Assembly: GCF_001908375.1 (NCBI RefSeq)
Contig: NZ_CP017244.1
Location: forward strand, 1,054,001-1,118,000
DNA: 64,000 nucleotides
DNA from: Rhizobium etli 8C-3
GTDB taxonomy: Bacteria; Pseudomonadota; Alphaproteobacteria; Rhizobiales; Rhizobiaceae
Reading direction: 5' to 3'
The notes under the pieces were generated by a model. That model did not search any database. It saw only the letters and a program-made list of their open reading frames with translations, and had not been told where the DNA came from. This document shows, piece after piece, positions 5,940 to 57,746 of this stretch. Both the position numbers and the translations under genes were made by a program. Within the stretch, counting starts at the first letter, position 1, and each line of letters begins with the position of its first letter.

Positions 5940-5953
5940 TTGAGATGAATCAA
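5940..5953 (-). promoter_or_regulatory. FixK/Fnr-type site (TTGAGATGAATCAA)
   Basis: The site fits TTGA-N6-TCAA. Its centre lies about 71 bp before the start of the minus-strand CBS-BON gene, a distance that suits an activator site at -41.5. Confidence 0.75.
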
Positions 5954-6050
5954 AGCTGGCCGCGATGCGCACTTGGTCGGAAGGCGACATGGGCTGCGCC
6001 GCATCGACCGCATCCGTGACGGTCGCTGCCAACTTGCAGCCGGCTGCCAG

Positions 6051-7076
6051 TCAACCGTCCATCCCGAAACGAAGGTGTTCGCCCGACATCGTCACCAAGT
6101 CGACGCTCGCCTCGTCGGAAGGGGCGAGCATGTCCGGAATCTGTTGCGGCGCCGCCAAACTCATTGCAGTCGACAGTGCATCTGCCGTAGCAGCCTCCTT
6201 GGCGACGACGCTCAAGCGGCGGTAGAGCTGCGGGGCGGTTCCGGTCCGCGGGTCGAGAATATGGCCAAAACGGCCGGATCCGTCGAAGTGGAGACCAGCT
6301 GCGCTCGACGTCGCGACGGCTTGGTCGACAATCTCCAGCACGGCATCTGCCTTCAAGCTGTCTTCCTGCGATGCAAGCCCGATACTCCATGGACTGCCAT
6401 CCGCCTTAGCGCCGACCGCCCGATCCTCGCCCATGTTGACGAGACTGCTGGTGACGCCGGCATTGCGCAGAAGATTGACGACCCGATCGGTTATGAAGCC
6501 CTGCGCAACGCCGTTCAATGACATCGCCATGCCGGGGCGGATGAAGGCGATCCGGTCGCGGTTGAACCTGACTCCATCAAAGCCGATGCGCGTCAAGGCC
6601 GTTTTCAACTGAGCCGCGGGCGGGCCGGCCGCATCGGCACCCGAGGCCGAGAAATGGTGCGCGTACAGTGCCCAAAGGGGTTGGATTGTCGGATCAAATA
6701 GCCCTTTGGTCGTCTCCCAGTAGGTTCGGCACCTTTCGAGCAGTGCGATCATTTCCGTTGGCGGCGCTGCCAGCCCGCCAACGCGGTTGAGCTCGCAGAG
6801 CGCAGAATCGCTGCGGTACAGACTGAAAATGGCCTCCAGCCGGTCGACTTCTGCCACCACCTGCGCAATCAGCGTTGCCGCGCGACTGCGATTGTCATCA
6901 TGGAGGATCAGCGTTGCCTGTGCCCCCAATGCCTGTCCCCTCCATACGACAGCATCCGCTGCTGCGCGGGCAGGTTCGGCCGATCGAACGAGCGGCAAAC
7001 CCGCGGCTGCGGCAATGATCGCGATGGCGCGTCGGCGGGTAAACAGACTAGCCACTGATCGCGCTCCCTTCCTCAT
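6051..7076 (-). CDS. nosX: NosX, ApbE-like FAD:protein FMN transferase
   Basis: NosX flavinylates NosR, attaching FMN to its periplasmic domain so that it can deliver electrons for N2O reduction. The 341-aa product has a Tat-like leader (FTRRRAIAII near residue 13) and the ApbE core, including a Y-S-AL-ELN region and a MSLNGVAQGFITD motif. ATG 7076 is placed directly before the leader; upstream in-frame codons run through nosL. It overlaps nosL by 29 bp and ends the nosRZDFYLX operon. Confidence 0.93.
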   Translation of the reverse strand: MRKGARSVASLFTRRRAIAIIAAAAGLPLVRSAEPARAAADAVVWRGQALGAQATLILHDDNRSRAATLIAQVVAEVDRLEAIFSLYRSDSALCELNRVGGLAAPPTEMIALLERCRTYWETTKGLFDPTIQPLWALYAHHFSASGADAAGPPAAQLKTALTRIGFDGVRFNRDRIAFIRPGMAMSLNGVAQGFITDRVVNLLRNAGVTSSLVNMGEDRAVGAKADGSPWSIGLASQEDSLKADAVLEIVDQAVATSSAAGLHFDGSGRFGHILDPRTGTAPQLYRRLSVVAKEAATADALSTAMSLAAPQQIPDMLAPSDEASVDLVTMSGEHLRFGMDG

Positions 7077-7605
7077 TGTTCGTGCCACCAAGCCCGGTTC
7101 CGGTGCTTGTGTCTGCTCCAAAGACGTAGCTCTCGGAAATTTCCTCGAAGAGGACGACCTTGCCGCCGTTTTCTGCCGCGAACGCCGCTGCGGCTTCACG
7201 GCTAGAAAACGGCACGGTTTCGGGTGCGCCCATGCCACCGCGCAGGCTGCTGCCGATCACGTAGTGGGCCTGTCGTGCGTCGATCCAGTTATCGTTGCCA
7301 GGATGCTCCCAGCTTGGTGCACGGCTCATGTCGGAGACATAGATGGCAGCAATGTCCTTTGGTTCTTCCGGAAGCTTGGTGAATGCCACCGCGTCCCGCG
7401 ATGATGTGAACCATACGGGCTCGTCACGGCTTTCGAGAATGATCTGCCCCTTGGGTCCCGGATGCTCCAGAACGTTCATGCCGCAGTAGTGATCGACGGC
7501 TTCCGGCATCAGCAGCATGGCTGGAGGTGCCGCAGTTTCGGACTTTTCGCAGGCGGCAAGCAGCAGCACCACCGTCATCATCGCGGCAAGATTTGACCGT
7601 TTCAT
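7048..7605 (-). CDS. nosL: NosL, outer-membrane/periplasmic copper lipoprotein
   Basis: NosL is a copper chaperone for the CuZ centre of NosZ. The 185-aa product has a lipoprotein signal (hydrophobic stretch ending LLAAC, Cys19) and the family motif YCGMNVLEHPGPKGQI near residue 41, with Cys and Met residues for Cu(I). It overlaps nosY by 4 bp and nosX by 29 bp. Confidence 0.93.
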   Translation of the reverse strand: MKRSNLAAMMTVVLLLAACEKSETAAPPAMLLMPEAVDHYCGMNVLEHPGPKGQIILESRDEPVWFTSSRDAVAFTKLPEEPKDIAAIYVSDMSRAPSWEHPGNDNWIDARQAHYVIGSSLRGGMGAPETVPFSSREAAAAFAAENGGKVVLFEEISESYVFGADTSTGTGLGGTNNEEGSAISG

Positions 7606-8429
7606 AGTTCTCTCCTAGAGAAACGCAGCGCAGCGAGCGCCAATGGCACCAGCGTCCAGAGACCGAGCGTTGAGAGCAGCAGCGTGGGTGTCAGTGTCGC
7701 ATTTGCGGCGACGCCACTCATGCCGGAGAGCGATCCAGCCCCGCCGGAACTGAGATTGAGGAGACGGTAGGCATCCGTCGGATTGAGCATCAGCAACACG
7801 TCGAGCAGCCCGCCTGGAATGCCGTGACCCTTTGTCGCCACGAGCGTGCCAAGCAGCGCCATGTCGTAAAGCATGACGAAGAACAGCCATATGCCGATGG
7901 CGATACCGCCCGCCGTGCTGCGCTCGCCAACCGACGCACTCATCAAATAGCCGATGGCGATGAAGACTGCGCCGAGCAATATCGACGAGCCGACCATCGA
8001 CGCGAAGGCCCACCAGCTGCTGGCGGCGATTGCCGTTCCGGTCGAGGCAAGGGCTGCCGCTGCAGCGCCATAGCCGCAAAGCGTTGCAAAGGCGAGGATC
8101 GCGATATGTCCCAGAAATTTGCCGAAGATCACCTGTCGACGCCCGATCGGATAGCTCAGCAGCAACAGCATCGTTCCGCGCTCCATCTCACCGACGATCG
8201 CATCATGCGAGAGCAAGAGCGCGATCAACGGCACGAGGAAGATCGTCAGGCTCGAGAGGCTGACAATGACGATGTCGAGCTGGTTGACCCCGACATGTCC
8301 GGTCGGCGCGCTGCCAAGGAAAGACAGAGTGAGCGCCAAGGCGGCAAGAAGGATCGTCATGGCCAAGACCCAGCGATTGCGCATTCCCTCCTGAATTTCC
8401 TTGCCGGCGATGATCAATATATTCGTCAT
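7602..8429 (-). CDS. nosY: NosY, ABC transporter permease for NosZ maturation
   Basis: The 275-aa product has about six hydrophobic segments, of the ABC-2 type. The cytoplasmic stretch ALLLSHDAIVGEMERGTM near residue 70 and the loop after it are characteristic of NosY. NosDFY together build or load the copper-sulfide centre of NosZ. It overlaps nosF by 4 bp on one side and nosL by 4 bp on the other. Confidence 0.94.
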   Translation of the reverse strand: MTNILIIAGKEIQEGMRNRWVLAMTILLAALALTLSFLGSAPTGHVGVNQLDIVIVSLSSLTIFLVPLIALLLSHDAIVGEMERGTMLLLLSYPIGRRQVIFGKFLGHIAILAFATLCGYGAAAAALASTGTAIAASSWWAFASMVGSSILLGAVFIAIGYLMSASVGERSTAGGIAIGIWLFFVMLYDMALLGTLVATKGHGIPGGLLDVLLMLNPTDAYRLLNLSSGGAGSLSGMSGVAANATLTPTLLLSTLGLWTLVPLALAALRFSRREL

Positions 8430-12623: not shown

Positions 12624-12647
12624 TTCATCTCTCCTTGGTTGTTCGGG

Positions 12648-15000: not shown

Positions 15001-15014
15001 TTGATGAAGGTCAA
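15001..15014. promoter_or_regulatory. FixK/Fnr-type site between nosR and the ferritin-like gene (TTGATGAAGGTCAA)
   Basis: The site fits TTGA-N6-TCAA. Its centre is about 77 bp from the nosR start and 88 bp from the divergent ferritin-like gene, so it could serve either promoter. Confidence 0.75.
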
Positions 15015-15095: not shown

Positions 15096-15986
15096 ATGCC
15101 AATGCAGAGATTGAGGGACGAGCCGAAAACCATTCAATCGATGCAGGATCTGCTGACGACCGCGCGGTCGATGGAGCAGGAAGCCGTTGCCGGCTATCAG
15201 GCATTGTCCGAACGCATGGTCAGGGAAGGAAGGGCCGAGCTTGCTTCAGTTTTCGATCGGCTCGTCGCCGAGGAGCAGGACCATCTCGCCATGGTCGAGC
15301 AATGGTCAGCCCAAACCGGTATTGCCTGCGAGACGGAGGCTTTGCCAGATCAGGTTAGCCTCTTTGACGACGAAGGTGCGGGTGTTGTCGCGCCGCAAAT
15401 GCTTAGCGCCTGTCGGACCTTTTCGATCGCGGTGCGCAATGAGGAGCGCGCCTTCGTGTTCTGGACCTATGTCGCCGCCCACGCCCCGACGCCGGAGATG
15501 CGATCAGCCGCCGAGCGCATGGCGCGGGAAGAACTCGGACATGTCGCAACACTTCGTCAGGAACGGCGCCGCGCTTTTCATGCTCTCAGGCACTCGGAAG
15601 CAACCATCGTTAGAAGCATCGCGTTTCTGGAGGACCGGCTGACCGGCTCTCTCGATGGTCAGTTTTCGACAGTGGAGACGGCGGATATGGCTGAAGTTAT
15701 TGCGCTGGCGCGGCAGGCTCGGGCACGTGCTGACGCTGTCCGGTCCTGGCCATTTGCGGGTCCGATGACGGTTGCCGTGCAGCAAAATGACGAAGTGCCG
15801 AACCTTCGCGGACTAAGCGAACTCCTGCTTGACTGTTATCTCGACCTTGCCGAGAGCTGCAGGGATCAGCCGGGGCGCAATCTAGCGCAGAAGTTCGCAG
15901 GAGAACTTATTCACTGTCTGTCTGTCGTGGGGCGCCTAGAGACGCGATCACGACGCGACCGGAAAGAGGATCCAGTATGCAGATAA
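15096..15986 (+). CDS. Ferritin-like diiron-domain protein
   Basis: This 296-aa protein holds two ferritin/rubrerythrin-like helical segments. The first (about residues 15-72) has E-EA-AGY and EEQDHLAMV; the second (about residues 110-165) has NEERAFVFWTY and REELGHVATL. These ExxY and ExxH patterns are those of diiron ligands. The function is unknown; detoxification of peroxide or NO, or iron handling, is possible. ATG 15096 follows an AGGAGA ribosome site. It is divergent from nosR, shares its FixK-type site, and overlaps the next gene by 10 bp. Confidence 0.75.
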   Translation: MPMQRLRDEPKTIQSMQDLLTTARSMEQEAVAGYQALSERMVREGRAELASVFDRLVAEEQDHLAMVEQWSAQTGIACETEALPDQVSLFDDEGAGVVAPQMLSACRTFSIAVRNEERAFVFWTYVAAHAPTPEMRSAAERMAREELGHVATLRQERRRAFHALRHSEATIVRSIAFLEDRLTGSLDGQFSTVETADMAEVIALARQARARADAVRSWPFAGPMTVAVQQNDEVPNLRGLSELLLDCYLDLAESCRDQPGRNLAQKFAGELIHCLSVVGRLETRSRRDRKEDPVCR

Positions 15987-16545: not shown

Positions 16546-16559
16546 TTGACATATCTCAA
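16546..16559 (-). promoter_or_regulatory. FixK/Fnr-type site upstream of tatA (TTGACATATCTCAA)
   Basis: It fits TTGA-N6-TCAA and is centred about 88 bp before the tatA start on the minus strand, in the 211-bp gap after the LysE-type gene. Confidence 0.7.
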
Positions 16560-17293: not shown

Positions 17294-17307
17294 TTGACGA
17301 AGGTCAA
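17294..17307. promoter_or_regulatory. FixK/Fnr-type site, divergent (TTGACGAAGGTCAA)
   Basis: It fits TTGA-N6-TCAA. It is centred about 61 bp before the LysE-type gene and about 75 bp before the small membrane-protein gene at 17376, suiting both. Confidence 0.75.
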
Positions 17308-17627: not shown

Positions 17628-17641
17628 TTGATCTTCCTCAA
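17628..17641 (+). promoter_or_regulatory. FixK/Fnr-type site (TTGATCTTCCTCAA)
   Basis: It fits TTGA-N6-TCAA and is centred about 110 bp before the small protein gene at 17745. The inner six bases are not palindromic, so it may be weaker than the others. Confidence 0.55.
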
Positions 17642-17744: not shown

Positions 17745-18032
17745 ATGTCTTTAAAGTTCGTTACAGCCTTCCTGCGCTCTTCTGGCGAGAACGCCATGAT
17801 CATCCTTGAGGAGGCCGGAAGCAATCAGATTGCCGTCGTCGAAAAAGAGGCGCTCCTCAATGTTGCCTCTCCACCGCGGGCGGACGAGACGCGGCTGCAG
17901 GAAAATATCGAGCTCTTCTGCGACATCGTTCGCGCAAAGCATCGCGTCAAGGATGTTGCGTCTGATGGCCGTATCTATGTTTCTGCCGGCGATGTCTCGG
18001 AGTGGAACTCAAATCGTGACCATCGGCACTGA
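17745..18032 (+). CDS. Small conserved protein, paralogue of the gene at 18063-18464
   Basis: This 95-aa soluble protein shares the core LNVASPPRA, followed by E-RL-E, FC-I and a (V/I)-(S/T)A-DV--W ending, with the convergent neighbour. Its fold cannot be told from the sequence; the DG-I-V--GDV tail vaguely resembles DUF1488 proteins. ATG 17745 has a GAGAGG ribosome site; the frame upstream to 17622 lacks one. A FixK-type site lies upstream. Confidence 0.65.
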   Translation: MSLKFVTAFLRSSGENAMIILEEAGSNQIAVVEKEALLNVASPPRADETRLQENIELFCDIVRAKHRVKDVASDGRIYVSAGDVSEWNSNRDHRH

Positions 18033-18062: not shown

Positions 18063-18464
18063 TCACTCCACGGTATAGCCTTTTTCCTCTGGGGATTTGG
18101 CTGAGACGAGCTGAAGGTGATGCGACCGCTTGCGAATGCGATACCTGCTGTTGCAGGTTTCCTTCGAGCGAGAGGAAAACTGCGCCGGAGAAGACGGCCA
18201 ATGCCGGCGCCAGCCTCGCACGTCGTCTGCGGTGATAACGATGTCCTGATTGACGATCGGCATCTGCATACGATTGACGGCAATCTCGCAGAAGGTACCG
18301 ACGTGCTCCAGGAAACGCGCTTCGCTGGCGCGCGGCGGGGAGGCGACGTTCAGTATGGCGCGGCGCGTCACCAAGACGGTCCGGCATTGTGAGCCGACCT
18401 GCAAAATGATGCATCCAGACTTCTCGTCCGCGTCCAATCCGGCTGCTACGATGCCATATTCCAT
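18063..18464 (-). CDS. Small conserved protein, paralogue of the gene at 17745-18032
   Basis: The 133-aa protein shares with its convergent neighbour the LNVASPPRASEARF core, FCEIA and ITADDVRGW. After that point (residue about 85) it has an Arg/Ser-rich tail of about 50 residues with no counterpart, which may be a frameshift readthrough. The start at 18464 has an AAGGGAG ribosome site 9 nt upstream. Function is unknown. Confidence 0.6.
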   Translation of the reverse strand: MEYGIVAAGLDADEKSGCIILQVGSQCRTVLVTRRAILNVASPPRASEARFLEHVGTFCEIAVNRMQMPIVNQDIVITADDVRGWRRHWPSSPAQFSSRSKETCNSRYRIRKRSHHLQLVSAKSPEEKGYTVE

Positions 18465-18550: not shown

Positions 18551-18868
18551 CTATTCGCTGAGGCACGATTGGCATGTGACGGCGAACGGAACCGCTTCAA
18601 GACGCGCTTCCGAAATCGGCGATCCACACTTTACGCAGATGCCGAAGGTTCCGTTCTCCAGGCGTAGCAAGGCGGCGTTGATTGCGCGCACCTCTTCCTG
18701 CCCCGCACGTCCAAAGCCCTCGAGCACATCGTTGTTTTCGAGCTCGACGGCACGGTCCTCGTCGTCGGCATCCTTTCGCCGCCCCAGATCGCTATCAACG
18801 AGATGCAGGCGCCGGTCCAGATCTTCCAATCGGCGCCGCAGAATCTTTTCAAATTTCTCTTTTTGCAT
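18551..18868 (-). CDS. DksA/TraR-type C4 zinc-finger protein
   Basis: The 105-aa protein has an N-terminal coiled coil (residues 1-70) and a C4 zinc finger with C78, C81, C99 and C102 in the CVKCG...CQSC pattern. DksA/TraR proteins bind the RNA polymerase secondary channel and change promoter choice, often with ppGpp. This one is short and probably a specialised paralogue. ATG 18868 is chosen because it begins the coiled coil. A FixK-type site lies 60 bp upstream. Confidence 0.85.
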   Translation of the reverse strand: MQKEKFEKILRRRLEDLDRRLHLVDSDLGRRKDADDEDRAVELENNDVLEGFGRAGQEEVRAINAALLRLENGTFGICVKCGSPISEARLEAVPFAVTCQSCLSE

Positions 18869-18928: not shown

Positions 18929-18942
18929 TTGATCTACGTCAA
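18929..18942 (-). promoter_or_regulatory. FixK/Fnr-type site upstream of the dksA-like gene (TTGATCTACGTCAA)
   Basis: It fits TTGA-N6-TCAA and is centred about 67 bp before the dksA-like start. Confidence 0.75.
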
Positions 18943-20536: not shown

Positions 20537-21513
20537 TTATCTCCACCGTTTCTCATAGGCGCCATGCGTGGTTTTCTGACCCTCGCTTAAACTCCGCAGA
20601 CGGGCCAGCAGGCGCGATCGTTCGGCCGGGGCAGCATCGACCGCGGCGCGAAGCGTCGAAACCACTTCGCCGACATAGGCTTTGCCGCGCTGCCGCCCTT
20701 CGATTTTGAGGGCGCAAACGCCTGCTGCTCTCAGCGCATCGATCTCATCCATGATGTCGAGCGACGTGGGATCCTCAAACGCGTAGCCTTGCCTGTCTGC
20801 AATGTCGAAACGGCCCTTGCATAAGGTCGGATATCCCGCAGGCTCGTTGGGCCCGAAGCGATTGATGGTAAAATCGCCAAGCTCGGAGACGAGACCACCC
20901 GCTCCTGACGGTAGCGCACCTGGCTGGCCGGCGAGCAGACGCCCTGCATGTTCGGCGACTTTCCCGCGGCATAGGATGACAGGGCACAACGTCCTTCCGC
21001 CATGACGCAGAGGCCGCCAAAGACGAAGACCTCCAGTTCACATTTGATCTTGCTCCCAAGCCGGGCGATATCGGGAATTGTCAGCGTGCGCGGCAGTACG
21101 ACGCGTGCTGCGTTGAACATGTCTGCGAGGAAGGCGATCGCATCCGCATTTGACGCAGATGCCTGCACGGAAACATGCAGGCGCTGTTGGGAATGGCGTT
21201 CCGCGACATAGGCCATCAGGCCGAAATCAGCCAGGATAAGTGCATCCGCCCCGATCGCCACGGCGTCATCGGCGGCTGAATACCAGAGCTTTTCGCGGCC
21301 CGCCGTCATGAAGGTGTTGAGGGCCACGAAGGTGCGGACGCCTTTGGTCCGGGCATATGAGATTGACGCGGCAAGTTCCTCCCGCGTGAAATTCAAGCCC
21401 GGGAAATTGCGGGCGTTGGTTTCGTCGCGAAAACCGCAATAGACGGCATCGGCGCCAGCGTCGACGGCTTCCCGGAAGGCTGCCGGGGTGCCCGCAGGAC
21501 AAATCAGTTCCAC
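20537..21513 (-). pseudogene. ubiU: UbiU, O2-independent ubiquinone hydroxylation subunit, with a one-base frameshift
   Basis: The U32-family UbiU is split between two frames: residues 1-205 in one, the rest in another. The break is near a run of three C on the plus strand at 20898-20900; adding one G (C on the plus strand) restores a single 325-aa frame. Ligands C169, C176 and C193 lie before the break. The restored frame puts the fourth cysteine (YPTLC) at 232, which equals the E. coli UbiU positions as I remember them. As given, the product ends in unrelated sequence at 20731 without the fourth ligand. It could be a real mutation or a sequencing error. It overlaps ubiT by 10 bp. Confidence 0.85.
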
Positions 21514-22063: not shown

Positions 22064-22077
22064 TTGTGCCATCTCAA
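22064..22077. promoter_or_regulatory. TTG-N8-CAA (NnrR/Fnr-like) site between ubiT and ubiD (TTGTGCCATCTCAA)
   Basis: The left half lacks the A of TTGA, so it fits only TTG-N8-CAA. The centre is about 60 bp from the ubiT start and 41 bp from the ubiD ATG, so it suits ubiT better. Confidence 0.5.
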
Positions 22078-24898: not shown

Positions 24899-24986
24899 CC
24901 CCCATTTTGATGTCGACCCGCTCCTCTATACGATCTTGAGCAATCGCTTCATTGCGAAATCTCAAAAGCAGTGCCTGGCTTCTTAT

Positions 24987-25000
24987 TTGCGTTCGAACAA
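24987..25000 (-). promoter_or_regulatory. TTG-N8-CAA site upstream of nnrU (TTGCGTTCGAACAA)
   Basis: Flanked by T and A as TTTGCGTTCGAACAAA, with a central TTCGAA palindrome. It is centred about 95 bp before the nnrU start. It lacks TCAA, so it fits NnrR rather than FixK. Confidence 0.6.
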
Positions 25001-25356: not shown

Positions 25357-26016
25357 CTACGGCCGGCCGGCAATCGTTGTCACTTTGTCGACAATGGTTG
25401 CCGAGCCTCTGAGGTTCTCGACGAGAACTTTTATGGCTTTGCGATGGAGTTCTGTCTCGACGCTGCCCGTGAGTATGACGTTGCCGTCCTGAACGGCCAC
25501 ATCAATTTGCTCCTGCGGAAGACTCAGATCATTCTTCAACCGTGTCGCGACAGCAAGGCGCAACGCATCCTCGCCGCGCGGAATGAAATCGGGCAGGCCT
25601 GCAACGACCGCTCTGAGAAGGTCGCGGCGGCTGACGATCCCGACAACCCTGCCATCCGAGACGACCGGCACGCGCTTGATGGAATGCAGCGCCATGAGAC
25701 CGGCGATTTCGCCAAGAGGCGCCGCTGGCCTCACAGATACGACGTCGGTGGACATGACGTCTTCGACCCGCCAGCTATTGCCGTGGACATAGTCGCGAAG
25801 CGCGTCAACCGTGCCTGCATCATCGGCTGCCCTCAGGTCCAGTTCCTTTCGGCGCAGCATGTCGCCTTCAGTGATAATCCCGCGCAAGCTTCCGTCGTCG
25901 CCGACGACCGGCAGCCCGCTGACATCGGCAGCGATCATTGTTTCGATAGCTTTGCGGATGCTGGCCGTCAGGCTGACCGTAGCCACGGCCCTCGTCATTA
26001 TGTCTTTGGCTTGCAT
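25357..26016 (-). CDS. CBS-domain pair plus BON-domain protein (copy 2)
   Basis: The 219-aa product repeats the CBS-CBS-BON architecture of the gene at 5171-5875: CBS motifs at about residues 1-58 and 80-138 (SGLPVV, VGIVSRRDLL), then a BON domain (about 148-216). The two are diverged paralogues and both follow FixK-type sites. Role unknown; energy- or redox-state sensing through adenine nucleotides is plausible for CBS pairs. The start follows a GGAGCC-containing region. Confidence 0.85.
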   Translation of the reverse strand: MQAKDIMTRAVATVSLTASIRKAIETMIAADVSGLPVVGDDGSLRGIITEGDMLRRKELDLRAADDAGTVDALRDYVHGNSWRVEDVMSTDVVSVRPAAPLGEIAGLMALHSIKRVPVVSDGRVVGIVSRRDLLRAVVAGLPDFIPRGEDALRLAVATRLKNDLSLPQEQIDVAVQDGNVILTGSVETELHRKAIKVLVENLRGSATIVDKVTTIAGRP

Positions 26017-26095: not shown

Positions 26096-26109
26096 TTGAT
26101 CGGGATCAA
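26096..26109 (-). promoter_or_regulatory. Perfect FixK/Fnr-type palindrome (TTGATCGGGATCAA)
   Basis: The two 5-bp arms are exact inverted repeats around four bases, as in the canonical FNR/FixK site. The centre is about 87 bp before the CBS-BON copy 2 start. Confidence 0.8.
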
Positions 26110-26177: not shown

Positions 26178-26873
26178 CTATTCACGGCCGCCGTCTGCGA
26201 GAATCAATAGCTTTCGGTAGTCGCAGACGAGCAGTTTTTGACGGCCACCTTCAACAAGGCCCTTGGCTTCCCAGGCGCTCAGAATTCTTGAGACCGTGTG
26301 CAGTGTCGTTCCCGTCATTTCGGCGATATCCTGGCGAGAAATCGGAAAGTCGATACGAATGCCGTCACCCTCCTGTTTCCCTGCCTGCTTGGAAAGCCTC
26401 AGGACAGCATGGGCGACGCGTCTTTCCACCTCCTCTGTCGACATTTCGCGGATCCGCGTATGAGCCTCTTCGAGACGTTGACCGATGGTTTGCATCGCGG
26501 TAACCGCCAGGCGCGGGTTTTGCTCGACGAATTGCGGCCAAAGATCGGTTGGCCACGAAAGCGTCAGGCTCTCGGCGGCGGCAATTGCGGTGCCTGGATA
26601 GTCGGAACGCTGCAAGGCTCTGGCAAAACCGAACAAATCGCCCGGGTGAACAACCCGGACGATGATCTGCTGGCCATCTGCGGTAATTTGCGTAACCTTT
26701 AATCTGCCATGCAGGAGCAGGAAGAAAAATCTGGCAGGCGCCCCTTGCTCGAAGACGGCATCGCCCTGTGCGACACGCCGTGAAACCGCATGCTCCACCA
26801 TCGCGTCGAGATCGGAATCCGTCATTCGATCGAACAATGGCAGTGATTTCAATACGGCGCGATCAATCTTCAT
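26178..26873 (-). CDS. nnrR: NnrR, Crp/Fnr-family regulator of nitrite and NO reductase genes
   Basis: The 231-aa protein has a cyclic-nucleotide-type sensor domain (about residues 15-130) and a C-terminal HTH (ISRQDIAEMTGTTLHTVSR, about 181-199). It lacks the N-terminal cysteine cluster of FNR, as expected for NnrR, which responds to NO. The gene overlaps the nirV stop by 4 bp (ATGA), so it is in the nirK-nirV-nnrR unit. Its likely targets are the TTG-N8-CAA sites before nirK, norC, norE, nnrS and nnrU. Confidence 0.9.
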   Translation of the reverse strand: MKIDRAVLKSLPLFDRMTDSDLDAMVEHAVSRRVAQGDAVFEQGAPARFFFLLLHGRLKVTQITADGQQIIVRVVHPGDLFGFARALQRSDYPGTAIAAAESLTLSWPTDLWPQFVEQNPRLAVTAMQTIGQRLEEAHTRIREMSTEEVERRVAHAVLRLSKQAGKQEGDGIRIDFPISRQDIAEMTGTTLHTVSRILSAWEAKGLVEGGRQKLLVCDYRKLLILADGGRE

Positions 26874-27916: not shown

Positions 27917-29053
27917 TCAGCTGGCCGATGGCGACTTGACCGAAGTCATCAGATCATCGTTCCAATCGCCGGTGACCTTGAAGTGAGCCGCAGCTCCAAG
28001 CTCGAAGGCTTCGATCAGGTTGTGGTTGACGTAGGCATAGATGCCGGGCTGCTCGAAGGTGTAGTAGGCTGCGCCGGCTGTGCCGCCGGGAATGAACCAG
28101 GTCTCCTGATCCCGGTCCGGCACATTGATAAACTTGCCCGTCGCCCAGACGTATTCGCCGTGACCGCCGATGAGGTGCGGCCGGGTATCGCGGTTGGCCT
28201 GCGAGTGAACGATGAGAACGCGCTCGCCGACTGCAGCCGTCAGAGCGTTCTCACCGGTGAGCGCGCCAACGGCGCCGTTGAAGACGACATGCGTCGGTGT
28301 CAAGGTGCGCATGACGGCGATGGTCTCTTCATAGGCCTCGCCGGGACTGTCATATTTCTTGAACTCGCCCTTTTCGTCGCGCGGAACATAAAAGTCCTGC
28401 TCACCGACATAGTAGACCTTGTCATAGACAAGTTCCTTGCCATGGCCGTCTGTCAGACCTTCGCGCGGCAGCACCATGATCGCGCCGTTCATACCGGACG
28501 CAACGTGCCACGGCACCATGCCGGGAGGGGCGCAGTGATAGACGAAGACGCCGGCCTTGGTCGCCTTGAAGCGCAGTACGGTACTCTCACCCGGGTTGAC
28601 GATCGTCAGCGCCCCACCGCCGAGCGCGCCGGTTGCCGAATGAAAGTCGATATTGTGCTGCATCGAGTTCGTCTCGGGATTGACGAGCGTGACTTCGACG
28701 TAATCGTGCTGGTGCACGACGATGAGCGGACCAGGAACCGATCCATCAAAGGTCATGGCATTGACTTCAGTGCCTTTACCGTCGATCACGAGCTTCTTTT
28801 CCTCGATCGTCAGCGTGACTTCGATGACTTTCGGTCCGCCTTCTGCCTTTTGCGTATGTGCGTGGACGAAAGGTGGCTTCATGAGCTCCAATTTCTGGCG
28901 TGGAAGGGCTGCGATGTCGGCGGCGCTCAGCTTCTTGGCGAGGGCGGCAGGAGAGCCATTCGCCGCCGTCGATGCGAGGATGGGGGTCAGCGCTCCGGCG
29001 ACAGCAGCACCCGTCAGCATCGTGCGCCGGGTCATTTGAAATGTGTTTGTCAT
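27917..29053 (-). CDS. nirK: NirK, copper-containing nitrite reductase
   Basis: NirK reduces nitrite to NO in the periplasm. The 378-aa product has a Tat-like leader (MTRRTMLTG at residues 7-15). Type 1 copper ligands are H133, C174, H183 and M188, and type 2 ligands include H138 and H173, in the HNIDFH and [12 protein letters not shown] motifs. Two adjacent ATGs are possible; 29053 sits 7 nt after GGAG. A TTG-N8-CAA site lies 79 bp upstream. Confidence 0.97.
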
Positions 29054-29131: not shown

Positions 29132-29145
29132 TTGATTTGGAGCAA
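29132..29145 (-). promoter_or_regulatory. NnrR-type site upstream of nirK (TTGATTTGGAGCAA)
   Basis: The right arm is GCAA rather than TCAA, so the site fits TTG-N8-CAA. It is centred about 86 bp before the nirK start. Confidence 0.7.
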
Positions 29146-29185
29146 ATTCGATCTTTGCGGGAGCACAAAGTCGAGGCGCTGCTCT

Positions 29186-29199
29186 TTGCGTATTGTCAA
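29186..29199 (+). promoter_or_regulatory. NnrR-type site upstream of nnrS (TTGCGTATTGTCAA)
   Basis: The left arm is TTGC. It is centred about 63 bp before the nnrS ATG, and lies 54 bp from the nirK site, so the divergent pair has one site per promoter. Confidence 0.6.
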
Positions 29200-33127: not shown

Positions 33128-33141
33128 TTGACTGTGAACAA
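33128..33141 (-). promoter_or_regulatory. NnrR-type site upstream of the DUF2249 operon (TTGACTGTGAACAA)
   Basis: The right arm is ACAA. It is centred about 110 bp before the DUF2249 start on the minus strand. Confidence 0.5.
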
Positions 33142-33180: not shown

Positions 33181-33194
33181 TTGACCTATGACAA
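33181..33194 (+). promoter_or_regulatory. NnrR-type site upstream of hemN (TTGACCTATGACAA)
   Basis: It fits TTG-N8-CAA with an ACAA right arm. It is centred about 65 bp before the hemN ATG. Confidence 0.55.
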
Positions 33195-39335: not shown

Positions 39336-39349
39336 TTGCTATCGCGCAA
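39336..39349 (-). promoter_or_regulatory. NnrR-type site upstream of norCBQD (TTGCTATCGCGCAA)
   Basis: The arms are TTGC and GCAA, a near palindrome with TTTGC/GCAAA flanks. It is centred about 109 bp before norC, between norC and norF. Confidence 0.7.
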
Positions 39350-40247: not shown

Positions 40248-40261
40248 TTGATCCAGCGCAA
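40248..40261. promoter_or_regulatory. NnrR-type site between norE and the 51-aa gene (TTGATCCAGCGCAA)
   Basis: It has TTGAT and GCAA arms, like the nirK site, within CTTTGATCCAGCGCAAAG. The centre is about 62 bp from norE and 57 bp from the divergent ATG 40311. Confidence 0.7.
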
Positions 40262-43775: not shown

Positions 43776-43789
43776 TTGACGTTGGTCAA
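43776..43789 (-). promoter_or_regulatory. FixK/Fnr-type site upstream of pseudoazurin (TTGACGTTGGTCAA)
   Basis: It fits TTGA-N6-TCAA and is centred about 80 bp before the pseudoazurin start. Confidence 0.75.
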
Positions 43790-43977: not shown

Positions 43978-45903
43978 TCAGTCGAGCAGCTCACGAACCC
44001 GCATGGCTAGGTCCTTTGCGGTATAGGGCTTGCGCAGCCAGCTGCCCGGCGTCGCAAATTCGCGGCCGCCGAGACCCGGCTCGGCGTAGCCCGACGTAAA
44101 GAGGATCTTCAGGTCGGAGCGTACAACACGCGCCTTCTTGGCAAGCTCGTTGCCTGTCATGCCACCGGGCATGACAATATCGGTGAACAGAAGGGCAATC
44201 GTGGGATCTTCGGCCAGGATCTCGAGCGCGGTCTGGGCGTTGCTTGCCTCGATGACCTTGTAGCCCATTGACGACAGGCGCGCGACCGCAACGCGGCGCA
44301 CGCGCACATCGTCCTCGACGACCAGTACCGTCTCGGCTCCGCCTGGCAGCGCATCGCGCGGGTCGGGCCTCGTGTCGGAGGTCTCGACTTTGGCCGCAGC
44401 TGCCTGTACCCAGGGAAGATAGATGCGGATTGTCGTGCCGCGTCCGACCTCGCTATAGAGCTGCAAATGACCGCCTGACTGTTTCACGAAACCATAGACC
44501 ATGCTGAGGCCGAGGCCGGTGCCGGAACCAACGTCCTTGGTGGTGAAGAACGGCTCAAAGGCGTGTTCCTTGACTTCGTCCGACATGCCGACACCGGTAT
44601 CGGTGACGGAAATGAGAACGAAATTTCCAGTGCGCACCTGCGGATACATCTTTGCATAGTCCGCATCGAGATAGACGCGCTTGATCTCTGTTGTCAGGCT
44701 TCCGCCGCGCGGCATTGCGTCGCGGGCATTCAACGCGATGTTCAAAAGGGCGTTCTGCAGCTGGGAACTGTCGACCAGCACGTTGTGGTTCGAGCCGACG
44801 ATAACCGTCTTCAGGTCGATATTCTCGCCGAGCGTCCGCCGCAACAGATCTGAGAAGCTCGATACCAGCAATCCGAGATCCGCAAGCGTCGGATTGAGAG
44901 GCTGTCGGCGCCCGAATGCCAAGAGTTGCTCCGTCAGCTTCGCGCCATCGCCGGCCGCGTCCTGCGCCTCCCGCAGCAGCAGGCTGAGCGGCCCTTCCGG
45001 AAGCTTCGCCTCGATCATTTCGAGATTGCCGCTGATCACCGTCAGAAGATTGTTGAAGTCATGGGCAATCCCACCCGTCAACTGCCCGACGGCTTCCATC
45101 TTTTGCGCCTGCCGGAGATCCTCTTCGATCTTGTACCGGCCCGTCAGATCGCGGACGAAGCCGGTAAATATCCGCTCGCCGTTTGCCGTCGTCTCACCGA
45201 CATGTAGCTCCATCGGGAACTTTGAACCGTCGGCCCGTTGACCCGTCACCACCCGGCCGTAGCCAATGATGCGGCGCTCGCCCGTCCTGATGTAACGCGC
45301 GATATAATCATCATGCGCATCACGATCGGGATTCGGCATCAGATTACTGATATTCCGGCCGCAGATGTCGTCTGCTTTAACGCCGAACAGCTTTTCTGCA
45401 GCGGTGCTGAAAGAGATGACAATTCCTCGCTCATCGATGACGATCATCGCTTCGGGAACCGTTGCGAGGATGGACCGGAGGTGAGCCTCGCGCGCGTTGA
45501 CCTCGCTTTCGGCCCGCTTCAGATCGCTGATATCGTTGTCGGTCTGGATGATGACCGCTTCGCCGTCGGAAGGTTTCACCGCCATGCAGCGCGACGTCAC
45601 ATACACATCATGGCCGTCCTTGTGGCGATGGATGATTTCGCCCTGCCAGTATCCTTGCTGTCGCAGCTGCTCACTAACATCTTCGCGCGGTTCGCAAAAC
45701 TGCGCATCAAGCAGCTCTTCAAGGGCTTTGCCGACAGCCTCGTCACGCGTCCAGCCGTACAGGTTTTCGCAGCCGGCCGACCAGTCGGTAACGATGCCGT
45801 CAACGCCATACACGATGATGTTATTGGCGCCGCCCATAATGCGAACGATGGCCTCGAGTTCTTGCTTTGATACTGTGCGCGGCGAAGTGAAGCGATGCGA
45901 CAT
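43978..45903 (-). CDS. Hybrid FixL-type heme-PAS sensor kinase with receiver domain (hFixL)
   Basis: The 641-aa product has PAS-1 (about residues 15-130), a heme-binding PAS-2 (about 140-258), a histidine kinase core (H281 in [10 protein letters not shown]-box near 400, [11 protein letters not shown]) and a C-terminal receiver (about 525-640, TDIVMPGG). PAS-2 carries H197 in RDAHDDY, the FixL heme ligand, and [10 protein letters not shown] with R217. It senses oxygen and is of the type reported for Rhizobium etli, where it acts with FxkR. It follows fixK by 28 bp. No fixJ lies near. Confidence 0.9.
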
Positions 45904-45931: not shown

Positions 45932-46663
45932 TTAGTGAATACTGCTGCTATGGCAATTTTCCAATGAGAAATCATCGCCATTGCCGGACAATTGGATGAG
46001 ACGCTTGAGGCTCAGGATCTTCATGTCGTGGCGTCCGACCGGGACGAGAACGTTCCGGCTGGCAAGCTTGCTGATAGTGCGCGACACTGTCTCGATGGTG
46101 AGACCAAGATAGTCGGCAATATCGAGCCTGTTCATGGGCAGCATCACGAGGTCGCCTGCCGCGTTGGTCATATCACGGGAGATGAGCTGCAGCAGGAAAC
46201 TGCACAAGCGCTCTTCTGCATTCTTCTTCGACAACAGCACCATCTGATCGTGCGCAGCGGCCATTTCCTGGCACAGCAGCGAGATGAAATCGGGACGCAG
46301 ACAGGCAGAGCGGGAGATTTCATCATGGAAATTCTTCCGTGCGATGCGGCGGATTTTGCAATCGGTGACGGCTTCGGCCGTATAGAGGTAGCGCTCCTGG
46401 AGCGACGTGCCGACAAGATCGCCCGGATACAGAAATGCCGTGATGACGCGCCGACCGTCGCCGATGATGCGGTAGAGGCGCATCACGCCTTCGACGAGTT
46501 CAAAAAGATGGTTTGCCCCGTCTCCTTCCCAGAAAAGGGCCTTACCGGCTTGGACCACTTCCTGCGGAATAGAGTGAAAAAGCGATTTCAGAGACAGCTG
46601 TCCCGAATTGTCATTCACCGAACCTTGAATGGCTTCGAACGCAATATTTTTTTGCATCAACAT
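45932..46663 (-). CDS. fixK: FixK, Crp/Fnr-family activator
   Basis: The 243-aa protein has an effector domain (about residues 20-150) and a C-terminal HTH (MNRLDIADYLGLTIETVSRTIS, residues about 179-200, split into family motifs). It lacks the N-terminal cysteine cluster that senses oxygen in FNR, as in FixK. It is expected to activate the TTGA-N6-TCAA sites of this window. ATG 46663 is preceded by an AGAGGG ribosome site. A tandem GTTACA repeat lies 88 bp upstream. Confidence 0.9.
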   Translation of the reverse strand: MLMQKNIAFEAIQGSVNDNSGQLSLKSLFHSIPQEVVQAGKALFWEGDGANHLFELVEGVMRLYRIIGDGRRVITAFLYPGDLVGTSLQERYLYTAEAVTDCKIRRIARKNFHDEISRSACLRPDFISLLCQEMAAAHDQMVLLSKKNAEERLCSFLLQLISRDMTNAAGDLVMLPMNRLDIADYLGLTIETVSRTISKLASRNVLVPVGRHDMKILSLKRLIQLSGNGDDFSLENCHSSSIH

Positions 46664-46751: not shown

Positions 46752-46767
46752 TGTAACAGTTTGTAAC
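46752..46767 (-). promoter_or_regulatory. GTTACA-N4-GTTACA repeat (K-box-like FxkR site) upstream of fixK
   Basis: On the minus strand the sequence reads GTTACAAACTGTTACA, two direct hexamers 10 bp apart centred about 97 bp before fixK. As I recall, this is the FxkR-binding K-box described upstream of fixK in Rhizobium etli. OmpR-type regulators bind such direct repeats. Confidence 0.7.
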
Positions 46768-46834: not shown

Positions 46835-46848
46835 TTGACATAGATCAA
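46835..46848 (+). promoter_or_regulatory. FixK/Fnr-type anaerobox upstream of fixNOQP (TTGACATAGATCAA)
   Basis: It fits TTGA-N6-TCAA and is centred about 100 bp before fixN, as in other rhizobial fixN promoters. Confidence 0.85.
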
Positions 46849-50337: not shown

Positions 50338-50526
50338 ATGTCAACGCGCGATACCAATCCGCTGATCTCGCTGTATGGAACACCGCGTTCAGTCGTCCAC
50401 ACGCGAGTTTCCGTGCGGGCCAAGATGCCCGTTACCGCAGAAGAAGAAGAGCAAGAGACCGAAAAACTTGGCCAGGCGATGATCAGTTTGACTTGCCTCA
50501 AGGATCATTCGACCACAAGCCGCTGA
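50338..50526 (+). CDS. Small hypothetical protein after fixP
   Basis: The 62-aa frame begins 10 bp after fixP with a GGAAGG ribosome site 6 nt upstream. It has no membrane segment and ends with an acidic E-rich stretch and a TCLKDHSTTSR tail. I do not recognise it. It sits between fixP and a strong terminator, so it would be translated from the fixNOQP transcript, but it could be spurious. Confidence 0.45.
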   Translation: MSTRDTNPLISLYGTPRSVVHTRVSVRAKMPVTAEEEEQETEKLGQAMISLTCLKDHSTTSR

Positions 50527-50620: not shown

Positions 50621-50634
50621 TTGACCTACGTCAA
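50621..50634 (+). promoter_or_regulatory. FixK/Fnr-type site upstream of fixGHIS (TTGACCTACGTCAA)
   Basis: It fits TTGA-N6-TCAA and is centred about 63 bp before fixG ATG. Confidence 0.85.
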
Positions 50635-50690
50635 GGAAGGCAGCGTTGCGGAATGCGACAACGGCGCATCAATTTGGATGGTTAGTGATC

Positions 50691-55202: not shown

Positions 55203-55247
55203 GGGCTTGACGGTCGCCAGGAGCGGCGGATCATTGCCGCTGTCCTG

Positions 55248-55910
55248 CTACATTTGCCGCAAAGCCGCAATATCATCAATCCGCACCGTTCTGCCTCTGA
55301 CAGTGACGCCCGCTTCCTTGAGCGCACCGAATGCACGCGAAAGCGCTTCAGGTGCAAGGCCGAGCTTACCGGCGAGCAGACTTTTTTGGTAGGGGAGGCG
55401 AAAGGTTTGGCTTGGGTTGCCTGCCGAACATTGGCTTAAAAGATAGTTGGCAACCCGCTGCGAGGAAGTTCGCAGACGGTCGCTGGCGACGCATTCCATC
55501 GTCGCAAGCAGATGGTCGGCCATCAGTCGCATGATATTCCTGTCAAGAGCTCGGTCCTCTTCCGCCAGTCGTCTTACGCCGTCAATAGCAAAGCGTGCTA
55601 GCACAACGTTATCTGCCGCCTGAACATTGTAGGCATAGATGCCACCGCCGCCGATCAGACACTCGGCAAAGGTATCGCGCGGTTCACAGATCCTGATATC
55701 TGCAGCGCGGCCGATCTCGTTCGTCTTGAACAAGCGAACATAGCCACGCACAACGCAAAAGAACGCATCGGCTCTTTGACCTTCCCGGATGATGAAAACG
55801 CGAGGCTCGAACCTGATGATGTCAGCCAGCTTGAGCAGCCTGTTGGCAGTGTCGCTGCCTAGCCCGGCAAAAAGCTTTGAACGCGCTAATACGGATGTCT
55901 CAACGGACAT
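55248..55910 (-). CDS. Crp/Fnr-family regulator (third in window)
   Basis: The 220-aa product has an effector domain (about residues 10-130) and a C-terminal HTH (KSLLAGKLGLAPEALSRAFG, residues about 178-197). It has no N-terminal cysteine cluster and differs clearly from FixK and NnrR here, so it is a distinct paralogue of the DNR/FixK-like group. Its own promoter carries a FixK-type site, which suggests cross- or autoregulation. ATG 55910 is chosen over the frame start at 55934. Confidence 0.85.
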   Translation of the reverse strand: MSVETSVLARSKLFAGLGSDTANRLLKLADIIRFEPRVFIIREGQRADAFFCVVRGYVRLFKTNEIGRAADIRICEPRDTFAECLIGGGGIYAYNVQAADNVVLARFAIDGVRRLAEEDRALDRNIMRLMADHLLATMECVASDRLRTSSQRVANYLLSQCSAGNPSQTFRLPYQKSLLAGKLGLAPEALSRAFGALKEAGVTVRGRTVRIDDIAALRQM

Positions 55911-55966
55911 TTTCCTACCCTCGTTGAATCCCAAACCCCATTTAGCCTCCGCAAGCGAATTCCTGT

Positions 55967-55980
55967 TTGATTTCGATCAA
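55967..55980. promoter_or_regulatory. FixK/Fnr-type site between Crp/Fnr gene and FxkR-like gene (TTGATTTCGATCAA)
   Basis: It has perfect TTGAT and ATCAA arms. The centre is about 63 bp from the minus-strand regulator and about 170 bp from the FxkR-like ATG. Confidence 0.8.
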
Positions 55981-56142
55981 GGACCCAGGCGAGAAAAGAG
56001 CGCCAAAGCTCGCGGCCCGGGCGAACCGCTTCGCCATTCTTTTGGGGAAGCATCACCGGCGACGTTCCCATTTCCCGAAAAATTCGATAATTGAGAAAGC
56101 AACATGCGGTGCGCGGGCACGTTTCTCAAAGAAGCCCGGGGA

Positions 56143-56880
56143 ATGATGGAAATGACGGGCAAGCAGTCCGAGCATATATTGGTCGTCGATGATGACGCAC
56201 GGATCCGGCAAATGCTGATCCGTTATTTCGAAGACGAAGGGTACCGCGTGACTGCCGTCGCCGACGGGACTGCCATGCACGCTGAGCTCGCAAAGACGGA
56301 CTTTACCGCGATTTTCCTCGATCTGATTTTACCTGGCGGGCAAAACGGGCTTCAATTGGTGCGGGAAGTCCGCGCGAATTCGGACGTGCCGATTTTGATG
56401 CTGACCGGCCGCGATGATGTGACTGACAAAGTCGTGGGTCTCGAAGTCGGAGCCGATGACTACATCGCAAAGCCATTCCACCTTCGCGAGGTTCTTGCGC
56501 GGCTGAGAACCGTCTTGCGTCGCCGCCAGCCTCCCGATCGACACGCCGGGCAGCAGGCTGCGGACGAAGGTGTCCTGGAATTCGATGGTTGGCAACTTCA
56601 TATCCACCGGCGCAAGCTGACCGATCCTTGCGGACAAGACACCCCATTGACAACGGGCGAATTCGATATGCTGCTCGTCTTTGCGCGCAACCCCGGGCGC
56701 GTGCTGACGCGCGAAACGCTCATGGACCTGACACGCAGCCGCAATCTCGAAGCGTTTGATCGAACGATCGACGCGCAGATTGCCAGGCTGCGCAGAAAAA
56801 TCGAACAGGATCCCAAGAACCCGACAATCATCCAATCCGTTCGCGGCGTCGGCTATGTCTTTACGGGTGGCAGCCGATAA
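56143..56880 (+). CDS. OmpR/PhoB-family response regulator, probable FxkR
   Basis: The 245-aa product has an N-terminal receiver (phospho-Asp in FLDLILPGG, about residue 57) and a C-terminal winged-helix domain (LTTGEFDMLLVFARNPGRVL, then RSVRGVGYVF-like ending). The OmpR type, the absence of FixJ, and the K-box-like repeat before fixK make it the likely FxkR partner of hFixL. ATG 56143 is uncertain (ATG 56146 and 56152 also possible). A gene encoding a cognate kinase is not adjacent; hFixL lies 10 kb away. Confidence 0.75.
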   Translation: MMEMTGKQSEHILVVDDDARIRQMLIRYFEDEGYRVTAVADGTAMHAELAKTDFTAIFLDLILPGGQNGLQLVREVRANSDVPILMLTGRDDVTDKVVGLEVGADDYIAKPFHLREVLARLRTVLRRRQPPDRHAGQQAADEGVLEFDGWQLHIHRRKLTDPCGQDTPLTTGEFDMLLVFARNPGRVLTRETLMDLTRSRNLEAFDRTIDAQIARLRRKIEQDPKNPTIIQSVRGVGYVFTGGSR

Positions 56881-56902
56881 TCCTCAAAACAACGCCGGTT
56901 AA

Positions 56903-56916
56903 TTGATTCCCGTCAA
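56903..56916 (+). promoter_or_regulatory. FixK/Fnr-type site before ccm remnant (TTGATTCCCGTCAA)
   Basis: It fits TTGA-N6-TCAA. The centre lies 220 bp before ccmE and 44 bp before the ccmI remnant start. Confidence 0.6.
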
Positions 56917-56952
56917 TGTTGGCGGGAGCTGAAGCACGTATGTCCTTTGAAA

Positions 56953-57132
56953 ATGAAACATTTCGAAGAACCCGATGCAGATGTTCCTTTGATTGCTTTT
57001 GCAGGACTGACAGCTGCCGTTGCAGCTGTGCTGCTTGCGCCGCTCGATAGACGGCGCGCCTCGATCGACCGGCACGTTGCCTGCGAGCAGATGGTCTACC
57101 GCGACCATGCGGCGGAAGGAGGCACGCAATGA
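56953..57132 (+). pseudogene. ccmI: Remnant of ccmI (cycH), internally deleted
   Basis: The 59-aa frame from ATG 56953 has a hydrophobic stretch (LTAAVAAVLLAPL) followed by an Arg-rich turn and VYRD, which is how CcmI begins. CcmI proteins normally have several hundred residues. It then jumps to a short tail ending EGGTQ that runs into ccmE. I read it as a CcmI gene with a large internal deletion; the family match is inferred from the pattern and from ccmE being next. Confidence 0.5.
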
Positions 57133-57581
57133 CGCGCAAGCAGAAGCGCCTGGCGGTGATTGGCGGCGGCATGGGCTTCATCCTCGCCGCGGTGCTGCTC
57201 GTCATGTTCGCCTTCAGCCAGTCGGTCGCTTATTTCTACATGCCGGCCGACCTTGCCAAAACACCGGTGGCGCCGCAGACGCGCATCCGCCTCGGCGGGC
57301 TGGTCGGCGAGGGCAGCGTCGTGCGCGGCGCAGGCTCGACGGTGGAATTTGCCGTCACCGATGGCAGCGGCGACGCGGTGAAGGTCAAATATACCGGCAT
57401 CCTTCCCGACCTGTTCCGCGAGGGGCAGGGGGTTGTGACGGAAGGCACGTTTGCGGCCGGCAGCCGGGAGTTCATCGCCGACACGGTGCTTGCCAAGCAC
57501 GACGAGAAATACATGCCGAAGGACGTTGCCGACCGGCTGAAGGCGCAGGGTCTGTGGCAGGAAGGCGAGGATACGCAATGA
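57129..57581 (+). CDS. ccmE: CcmE, heme chaperone for cytochrome c maturation
   Basis: CcmE binds heme covalently and passes it to CcmF for cytochrome c biogenesis. The 150-aa product has an N-terminal membrane anchor (about residues 9-31), a beta-barrel domain and the heme-binding H124 in [10 protein letters not shown] with Y128. AAGGAGG precedes ATG 57129. It is intact while its neighbours ccmI and ccmF are eroded. Codon use is notably GC-rich at third positions, as in hemA next to it. Confidence 0.95.
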
Positions 57582-57706
57582 TCATCGAGATCGGCCACTA
57601 CGCACTTGTCCTGGCGCTGGCGGCAGCGATCGGTCACTGACTTTACCGTCAGGAACGTCTGGGGGAACTCGCATTCGCTGGTGCCGCTGCTGCGCCTTCA
57701 GCGGAA
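57578..57706 (+). pseudogene. ccmF: Remnant of ccmF (cycK), internally deleted and frameshifted
   Basis: ATG 57578 overlaps the ccmE stop. The first 20 residues ([20 protein letters not shown]) match the CcmF start, then a stop. In another frame from about 57637, TDFTVRNVWGNSHSLVPLL continues and resembles the next conserved CcmF block. The deletion joins these two. The rest of ccmF and ccmH are absent. Confidence 0.65.
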
Positions 57707-57732
57707 AATGGTGCCCACTTGGCGGTCCGTTC

Positions 57733-57746
57733 TTGATTTATGTCAA
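57733..57746 (+). promoter_or_regulatory. FixK/Fnr-type site upstream of hemA (TTGATTTATGTCAA)
   Basis: It fits TTGA-N6-TCAA and is centred about 61 bp before the hemA ATG. Confidence 0.8.

Follow-up and report, generated by a model that had tools for sequence, protein, structure and literature searches.

Two Crp/Fnr site classes, probably overlapping, upstream of the respiratory and denitrification genes of a Rhizobium etli megaplasmid

Two overlapping codes proposed for a denitrification block

The window studied here is a stretch of 64,000 nucleotides from Rhizobium etli 8C-3 (NZ_CP017244.1), covering positions 1,054,001-1,118,000 of a 2.25 Mb contig in a genome of 7.31 Mb and four contigs. 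It is a respiratory and denitrification block of a Rhizobium megaplasmid, carrying nap, nos, ubiTUVDX, nirK-nirV-nnrR, nnrS, hemN, nor, pseudoazurin, hFixL-fixK, fixNOQP and fixGHIS genes together with genes for an OmpR-type regulator, ccmE and 5-aminolevulinate synthase. We propose that two overlapping Crp/Fnr codes run these genes, and we consider this explanation, taken as a whole, probable. Class I, TTGA-N6-TCAA, would be the ordinary FNR-type box, read by proteins whose recognition helix follows the pattern ExxSR (FixK, FnrN and possibly DNR-like proteins). Class II, counted as the TTG-N8-CAA matches that do not fit TTGA-N6-TCAA, would be read by NnrR as an inverted pair of TTG[ACT][CGT]-N4. 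The proposal draws on site counts, their conservation, the recognition helices and the co-occurrence of class and NnrR at norC; binding, signals, feedback and shared use of promoters are inferred from these.

Site counts and chance matches

An earlier, sequence-only reading of this DNA had reported 13 sites of the first class and 8 of the second, all intergenic. The excess of both is real, and the numbers have to be raised. We found 14 class I sites in the window for 0.93 expected, a count that none of 100 shuffles reached; the whole genome holds 118 (33 for the reversed control), 12% of which fall within the 0.9% of the genome that the window represents. TTG-N8-CAA gave 34 matches (16.4 expected), 20 of them class II, with 10 intergenic and 10 coding, the latter including those at 15385 and 15772 in the ferritin-like gene. 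An intergenic position holds for class I (14/14 with the automatic caller, 13/14 with the curated gene table, which places the site at 50488 in the small gene hypE) and for only half of class II. The distance from site centre to start codon, given earlier as about 55-110 bp for most sites, is mostly ~55-120 bp, with ccmE (~220) as the exception.

The background for comparing frequencies came from 40 stretches of this genome, each 20 kb long, which together gave 145 kb of intergenic sequence under one home-made gene caller. Class I reached 14 sites for 0.58 expected (Poisson 3e-15) and intergenic class II 10 for 3.39 expected (Poisson 0.0026), so the comparison with intergenic DNA suggested in the sequence-only reading yields an excess and not an equal frequency. 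Intergenic matches to the spacer controls TTG-N7-CAA and TTG-N9-CAA were not in excess in the window (3 and 3), and the density of coding class II matches was 0.187 per kb in the window and 0.094 to 0.26 per kb in the sampled stretches. Judged on the loose motif alone, about one third of the intergenic class II sites could be chance (~3.4 of the 10 expected), and 10 of the 20 class II matches are coding, as would be seen if class II consisted mostly of chance matches to a six-letter motif. We hold this to be extremely improbable, since all 10 intergenic sites keep the motif in aligned relatives and 82 of 82 nirK loci carry class II. The refined half-site TTG[ACT][CGT] also argues against it, with 10 intergenic class II sites for 1.44 expected (2.9e-6), a figure weakened as support for our proposal by the rule having been learnt from relatives' loci, near relatives of the window among them. 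Conservation speaks against chance for nirK, nnrS, hemN, norC and norE. A GC-rich NnrR pattern, TTGCG-N6-CAA, was also counted genome-wide (147 and 146, for 90 and 97 in the reversed control) and proved too weak to list a regulon.

Conservation of the sites

The R. gallicum R602sp plasmid pRgalR602c matches 24-49 kb with 86.6%, and the NirK proteins of the window and of R. sullae are 92% identical. With R602sp, R. sullae and, for three sites, N741 as aligned relatives, none of the aligned copies of the 24 sites (14 class I, 10 intergenic class II; 1-3 copies per site) has changed class. Of the coding class II matches, 4 stayed intact and 6 have lost the motif in one relative or more.

Because TTG-N8-CAA is too short and half of the class II matches are coding, we switched to orthologous upstream regions. 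A set of 83 nirK loci, made of the best 80 of 311 confirmed loci from species genomes plus three plasmid regions, was searched over 260 bp upstream of each orthologue, with identical regions merged and identity floors applied. Class II was present upstream of nirK in 82/82 regions, nnrS in 69/71, DUF2249 in 61/62, hemN in 55/57, norC in 15/15, norE in 11/11 and ubiT in 14/14, the divergent pairs nirK/nnrS and DUF2249/hemN sharing their gaps and therefore not being independent. Presumed operon-internal genes gave 0/82 (nirV), 0/25 (norB), 0/54 (norQ), 0/14 (napA) and 1/44 (hypB), and changing the spacer upstream of nirK to 7 or 9 left 2/82 and 14/82 matches. In relatives, nnrU is mixed (n=19: class I in 8, class II in 13, none in 6). 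In a second sample, taken across the family Rhizobiaceae, class I stands before ccoN in 30 of 30 genomes and class II before norE in 19 of 19.

Genes preceded by each class

The genes that the sequence-only reading had placed behind each class are confirmed. On the class I side, the site at 46835..46848 lies 100.5 bp upstream of ccoN (fixN) and 178.5 from fixK, while ccoG (fixG) is preceded by two, one at 50621..50634 (63.5 bp upstream) and one at 50488..50501 (196.5 bp upstream, inside hypE), the latter with a class I counterpart at the same position in each of the two relatives that have it. The site at 57733..57746 stands 60.5 bp upstream of hemA (57800, +), 56903..56916 lies ~220 bp upstream of the orphan ccmE (57129, +), and 55967..55980 is upstream of a DNR-like Crp/Fnr gene. 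Pseudoazurin (azu, -, start 43702 or 43699) has its site at 43776..43789. The site at 15001..15014 is found between nosR (-, start 14879 or 14930) and a ferritin-like gene (+); tatA (-, start 16464) has one ~88 bp upstream (16546..16559). Further class I sites precede a LysE-type gene (17294..17307; -, start ~17239), a small gene starting at 17745 (17628..17641, ~110 bp upstream; +), a dksA-like gene (18929..18942, 67.5 bp upstream of 18551-18868, -) and two CBS-BON genes.

Of the class II sites, three occupy the gap between nirK (27917..29053, -) and nnrS, at 29132..29145, 29155..29168 and 29186..29199, the first and third having one TTGA half. Two stand in the DUF2249/hemN gap (33128..33141 and 33181..33194, each with one TTGA half) and two before nnrU (24952..24965, with one TTGA half, and 24987..25000). 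The others are at 22064..22077 between ubiT (-) and ubiD (+), at 39336..39349, 108.5 bp upstream of norC, and at 40248..40261 between norE (-) and the small gene hypC (40311, +), the ubiT/ubiD and norE/hypC sites again with one TTGA half.

The half-site rule and the apparent nesting of the classes

Upstream of the NnrR-side genes we collected 203 distinct sites, or 406 half-sites. Position 4 is A in 118 of them for a background of 0.246 (two-sided p 0.038, a slight excess) and G in 11/406 (background 0.183), and position 5 is A in 2/406 (background 0.161). The rule for NnrR-side sites is thus TTG[ACT][CGT], with no avoidance of TTGA. One TTGA half is seen in 94 of the 203, as in 7 of the 10 intergenic class II sites of the window, and sites with A in both halves show a small deficit (12 for 17.1 expected). 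In the window, the rule is passed by 10/10 intergenic class II, 5/10 coding class II and 14/14 class I sites. The two classes look nested and not separate: A at position 4 is accepted in NnrR-side half-sites and class I passes the NnrR rule, but the FNR/FixK box calls for A in each of its halves. The half-sites and the NnrR helix agree with published work in which CRP position 181 co-varies with the A of TTGA (PMC1274295), the NnrR motif is without that A (PMC1274295, PMC2908626) and only 6 of 10 positions are retained in it (PMC2908626).

Nesting bears on the earlier claim of separate target sets, which went too far. In a strict form, FixK would own class I and NnrR class II with no sharing, a division that would account for class I always standing at ccoN and class II always at nirK and norE in our samples, for the class of norC tracking NnrR and for the different helices of the two regulators. 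We judge it quite improbable: besides the acceptance of A at position 4 in NnrR-side half-sites, FnrN and DNR-like proteins with the ExxSR pattern are encoded in the same genome. Moreover, strain ABS7 has a class I site at the pseudoazurin gene beside nnrR. We take this gene to be azu1. The azu1 gene of S. meliloti is reported to be NnrR-dependent (Meilhoc 2010, cited in PMC6710368), and in a B. diazoefficiens nnrR mutant ccoN, a gene with a class I site, is 2.1-fold lower (PMC6710368). With this fall of ccoN, and with FixK2 activating nirK directly though not norC, strict separation is contradicted in B. diazoefficiens.

Regulators encoded in the genome

We found 35 Crp/Fnr candidates in the genome with PF13545, and read the recognition helices of the best 10 of the 35 from sequence alignment to solved chains. 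NnrR (26178..26873, -) is encoded by the third gene after nirK and nirV, overlapping nirV, and has the helix LHTVSR, with His where FixK and FnrN have Glu (a non-Glu residue at the FNR 209 position). The helix [LIV]HT[VI]SR was found in 76/77 nirK loci and in 30/30 of the better family matches (window included); of 15 rows of lower identity, 13 agree, 1 does not cover the helix and 1, 34% identical, differs. The His-for-Glu exchange would make A at position 4 dispensable to NnrR. Two classes with different regulators, as the sequence-only reading had it, are supported by these helices, by class II at nirK and by norC. In 73 of 77 nirK loci nnrR has no site of its own; since nnrR follows nirK and nirV, overlaps nirV and mostly lacks its own site, it is probably transcribed from the nirK promoter, which would create a positive feedback triggered by nitric oxide.

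FixK (45932..46663, -) has the helix TIETVSR and no FNR cysteine cluster. Downstream of fixK lies a gene for a hybrid FixL-like sensor kinase with a receiver domain (hFixL, 43978..45903, -). Upstream of fixK stands the only exact copy in the genome of the K-box GTTACA-N4-GTTACA (46752..46767, -), the motif defined as the FxkR target in PMC7888657. Because of this K-box, the oxygen signal probably reaches fixK through hFixL and an OmpR-type response regulator, the candidate FxkR (56149..56880, +, 66.5% to an N741 regulator), and not through FixJ (genome not searched for FixJ); in this scheme FixK would be produced when hFixL signals low oxygen through FxkR at the K-box.

The earlier attribution of class I to FixK alone is not retained. 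FnrN, encoded outside the window on contig 3, has the same helix TIETVSR and four cysteines, two N-terminal ones and the central one aligning with those of FNR and the third N-terminal one being shifted by two residues (C-x2-C-x7-C), and may sense oxygen itself; fnrN is preceded by two class I boxes 32 bp apart. The DNR-like Crp/Fnr protein of the window (55248..55910, -) has the helix APEALSR and is most like DNR-type chains, the top two being chains without a name of their own ("cyclic nucleotide-binding protein") and DNR coming third. A second DNR-like protein on contig 3 is a 54% relative of it with the same helix, and one chromosomal protein has the helix TIETVAR. Since FnrN and the two DNR-like proteins share the ExxSR pattern with FixK, class I could be readable by several proteins and is not assignable to FixK alone.

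Class and NnrR presence, and promoters that seem to have changed class

For one gene, norC, the class clearly follows the regulator. All 23 genomes of the family sample with class II at norC, that of the window among them, have NnrR, and the 3 with class I gave no NnrR match (Fisher 3.8e-4). Other promoters seem to have changed class within the family, namely azu, nosR and ubiT, azu and some nosR at nearly one position. At pseudoazurin, 15 of 39 loci carry class I and 24 carry class II; the distance is almost constant, mostly ~80 bp, and the NirK tree calls for at least 3 changes. A second hemN type, 45-50% identical and in several genomes adjoining ccoN, has class I in 15 of the 17 regions fetched and in 5 of 5 others.

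For nosR, 29 family genomes (one of 30 loci dropped) gave class II in 24, class I in 3, the window among them, and no site in 2. Among 13 plasmids fetched of the 60 listed among 204 matches, nosR has class I in R. gallicum (plus a distant class II match), R. sullae, Rhizobium sp. SRDI969, R. grahamii and S. mexicanum, both classes in S. meliloti 1021, class II only in six and no site in one. A tree of 38 of the 43 rows (identity at least 45%, site at 60-260 bp, S. meliloti 1021 scored as class I) requires at least 6 changes; neither this tree nor the NirK tree used for azu separates gain from loss. Between S. mexicanum and S. chiapasense the nosR sites, located at the same distance, differ in a single base. 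Our searches of open-licence papers, judged mostly from lists of hits, gave none on class switching of nosR or azu.

What the sequence-only reading found notable about nosR was well founded: at this gene the window's group differs from the majority of the family sample. FixK control of nosR is plausible here, and such control by FixK2 is already established in Bradyrhizobium.

Comparison with known systems

The split between the classes and the NnrR motif are already known from print, as are, for Bradyrhizobium, dependence of hemN and of a ubiT-like operon on NnrR and control of nosR by FixK2. In PMC2908626 (Dufour 2010), FNR, FixK and DNR share one site in their core regulons and NnrR differs at helix position 17, and the window is one more instance of this pattern. 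Described NnrR targets of alphaproteobacteria include nirK, nor, nnrS, hemN and nnrU, as in the window, with the motif ctTTGcgnnnncgCAAag (Rodionov 2005, PMC1274295; B. diazoefficiens, PMC6710368; E. meliloti, Meilhoc 2010 as cited there). The half-site rule obtained here is less strict (position 4 may be A, C or T and position 5 anything but A), and nosR of the window falls outside by class; nos was in the training set for the NnrR regulon (PMC1274295), and the window nosR site, of class I, passes the NnrR rule. In B. diazoefficiens we take a sterol-binding protein and a U32 peptidase to be UbiT and UbiV. Both are listed as an operon in the nnrR table of that species (PMC6710368); NnrR control of hemN and ubiT, as the sequence-only reading had it, has a precedent in the data on that species.

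The genome resembles the FixK/FnrN anaerobox regulon of R. leguminosarum and R. etli (PMC7888657) in having hFixL with fixK, a K-box, FnrN boxes 32 bp apart, and boxes before fixNOQP and fixGHIS; the two boxes of R. leguminosarum fnrN are reported at -34 and -2 (PMC7888657). In the window the box is also found at nosR, azu, tatA, hemA and the CBS-BON genes beside a denitrification cluster.

B. diazoefficiens FixK2 controls nosRZDFYLX (PMC5582078), and there, as predicted for the window, nosR is under a FixK-type regulator; the B. diazoefficiens site, TTGATCCAGCGCAA, is class II, in contrast with the full class I site of the window (PMC5582078). FnrN/FixK sites have also been predicted at nos of Bradyrhizobium and S. 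meliloti (PMC4999443). The norE site of the window, 40248-40261, is TTGATCCAGCGCAA, identical over 14 bases to the FixK2-activated nosR site, with one half of each type.

Weighing of the explanation

Several observations weigh against our proposal. Bradyrhizobium FixK2 directly activates nirK, which has a class II site (PMC6710368, PMC5582078), and its helix holds the same ETVSR core as the window FixK; as FixK2 acts at such a site, FixK may not be shut out from class II. In PMC4999443, nirKV is placed under FnrN/FixK in nine Rhizobiales. The association of class with NnrR is not significant at ubiT (15 class II and 5 class I with NnrR, 2 and 5 without; p 0.065, leaving out 3 site-less loci and scoring L240, which has both classes, as class I) and is absent at nosR (p 0.21), and class II is found despite the lack of an NnrR match at hemN of one genome (G114) and ubiT of two (G081 and G130). 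Among 25 hemN genes of the near type, 18 have class II, and the 4 with class I (one with both) and the 4 without a site do not fit. Class I additionally occurs at class II promoters of the nirK locus set (nirK 6, nnrS 5, DUF2249 7, hemN 8), and a class II match accompanies the class I site in 14 of the 30 ccoN regions, usually at 8-9 bp from the start. K-boxes with one mismatch show no excess in the genome (3 and 3, for 8 and 5 in the reversed control). Lastly, the relatives are non-independent samples.

Some of these points are what one would expect if class II were a loose FNR box used by the same regulators at lower affinity, with NnrR acting mostly indirectly. In vitro, nirK and nosR are activated by Bradyrhizobium FixK2, a regulator that accepts TTG(A/C)-N6-(T/G)CAA (PMC5582078, PMC6710368), and the frequency of single TTGA halves in NnrR-side sites points the same way. 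We find this unlikely, as ccoN keeps class I in all 30 genomes, norC has class I in exactly the 3 of 26 genomes without NnrR, A is sharply excluded at position 5 and FixK2 is reported not to activate the norC promoter in vitro (PMC6710368).

Under the two overlapping codes that we favour, class II promoters (nirK, nnrS, nor, hemN, DUF2249, nnrU, ubiT) would respond mainly to nitric oxide; class I promoters would respond to low oxygen, and NnrR may have access to them too. The NnrR site set would contain class I and not the reverse, because a helix with His instead of Glu no longer requires the A, and changing one base, at position 4 of a half-site, could shift a promoter between classes. More tentatively, and with slightly more doubt than confidence, we suggest that this amounts to a nested, one-way code in which the His helix of NnrR ignores a base required by the Glu helices of FixK, FnrN and DNR, keeping denitrification promoters private to nitric oxide and leaving oxygen promoters open to both signals. 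Through the base at position 4, the genes for nitrous-oxide reductase, pseudoazurin and anaerobic ubiquinone would then have passed from one signal to the other in different rhizobia, and in the R. gallicum/R. sullae group low oxygen, and not nitric oxide alone, would determine the removal of nitrous oxide. Such a code suggests how one cell keeps two look-alike regulators off each other's genes. From sequence it would predict which rhizobia make nitrous-oxide reductase on low oxygen and which on nitric oxide, a prediction that bears on nitrous oxide release from legume soils.

Other features of the window and genome

The CBS-BON genes are both on the reverse strand, at 5171-5875 (with OsmY-like matches) and 25357-26016 (BON domain by Pfam). 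The first has its class I site at 5940..5953, centred 71.5 bp upstream and class I also in R. gallicum R602sp, and the second at 26096..26109, 86.5 bp upstream; a role of these CBS-domain genes in low-oxygen energy sensing is possible. The ccmE gene (57129-57581) stands alone, flanked by the OmpR-type regulator and hemA, and ccmI and ccmF of the N741 cluster gave no match within the window.

On contig 3 (L363 6694-7257, ~380.7-381.3 kb), a second fixK adjoins a second fixNOQP-fixG cluster and matches in two frames; this copy is probably broken, to judge from the frames. At 380449 there is a K-box copy with a single mismatch, and both ccoN and a second pseudoazurin gene have class I sites in front of them.

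In the ubi genes, ubiU (20540-21513) is split over two frames, with a break near 20899 (residues 1-205 and 206-325 of the S. meliloti protein). In R. sullae residues 1-322 are matched in a single frame, and R602sp is without a middle part; the break of the window copy would be either a pseudogene or a sequencing error. Start candidates for ubiD are 22064 and 22112, 22142 being no start codon. Finally, the small genes 17745-18032 and 18063-18464 look like diverged copies, because both match the same N741 hypothetical protein (34% and 50%).

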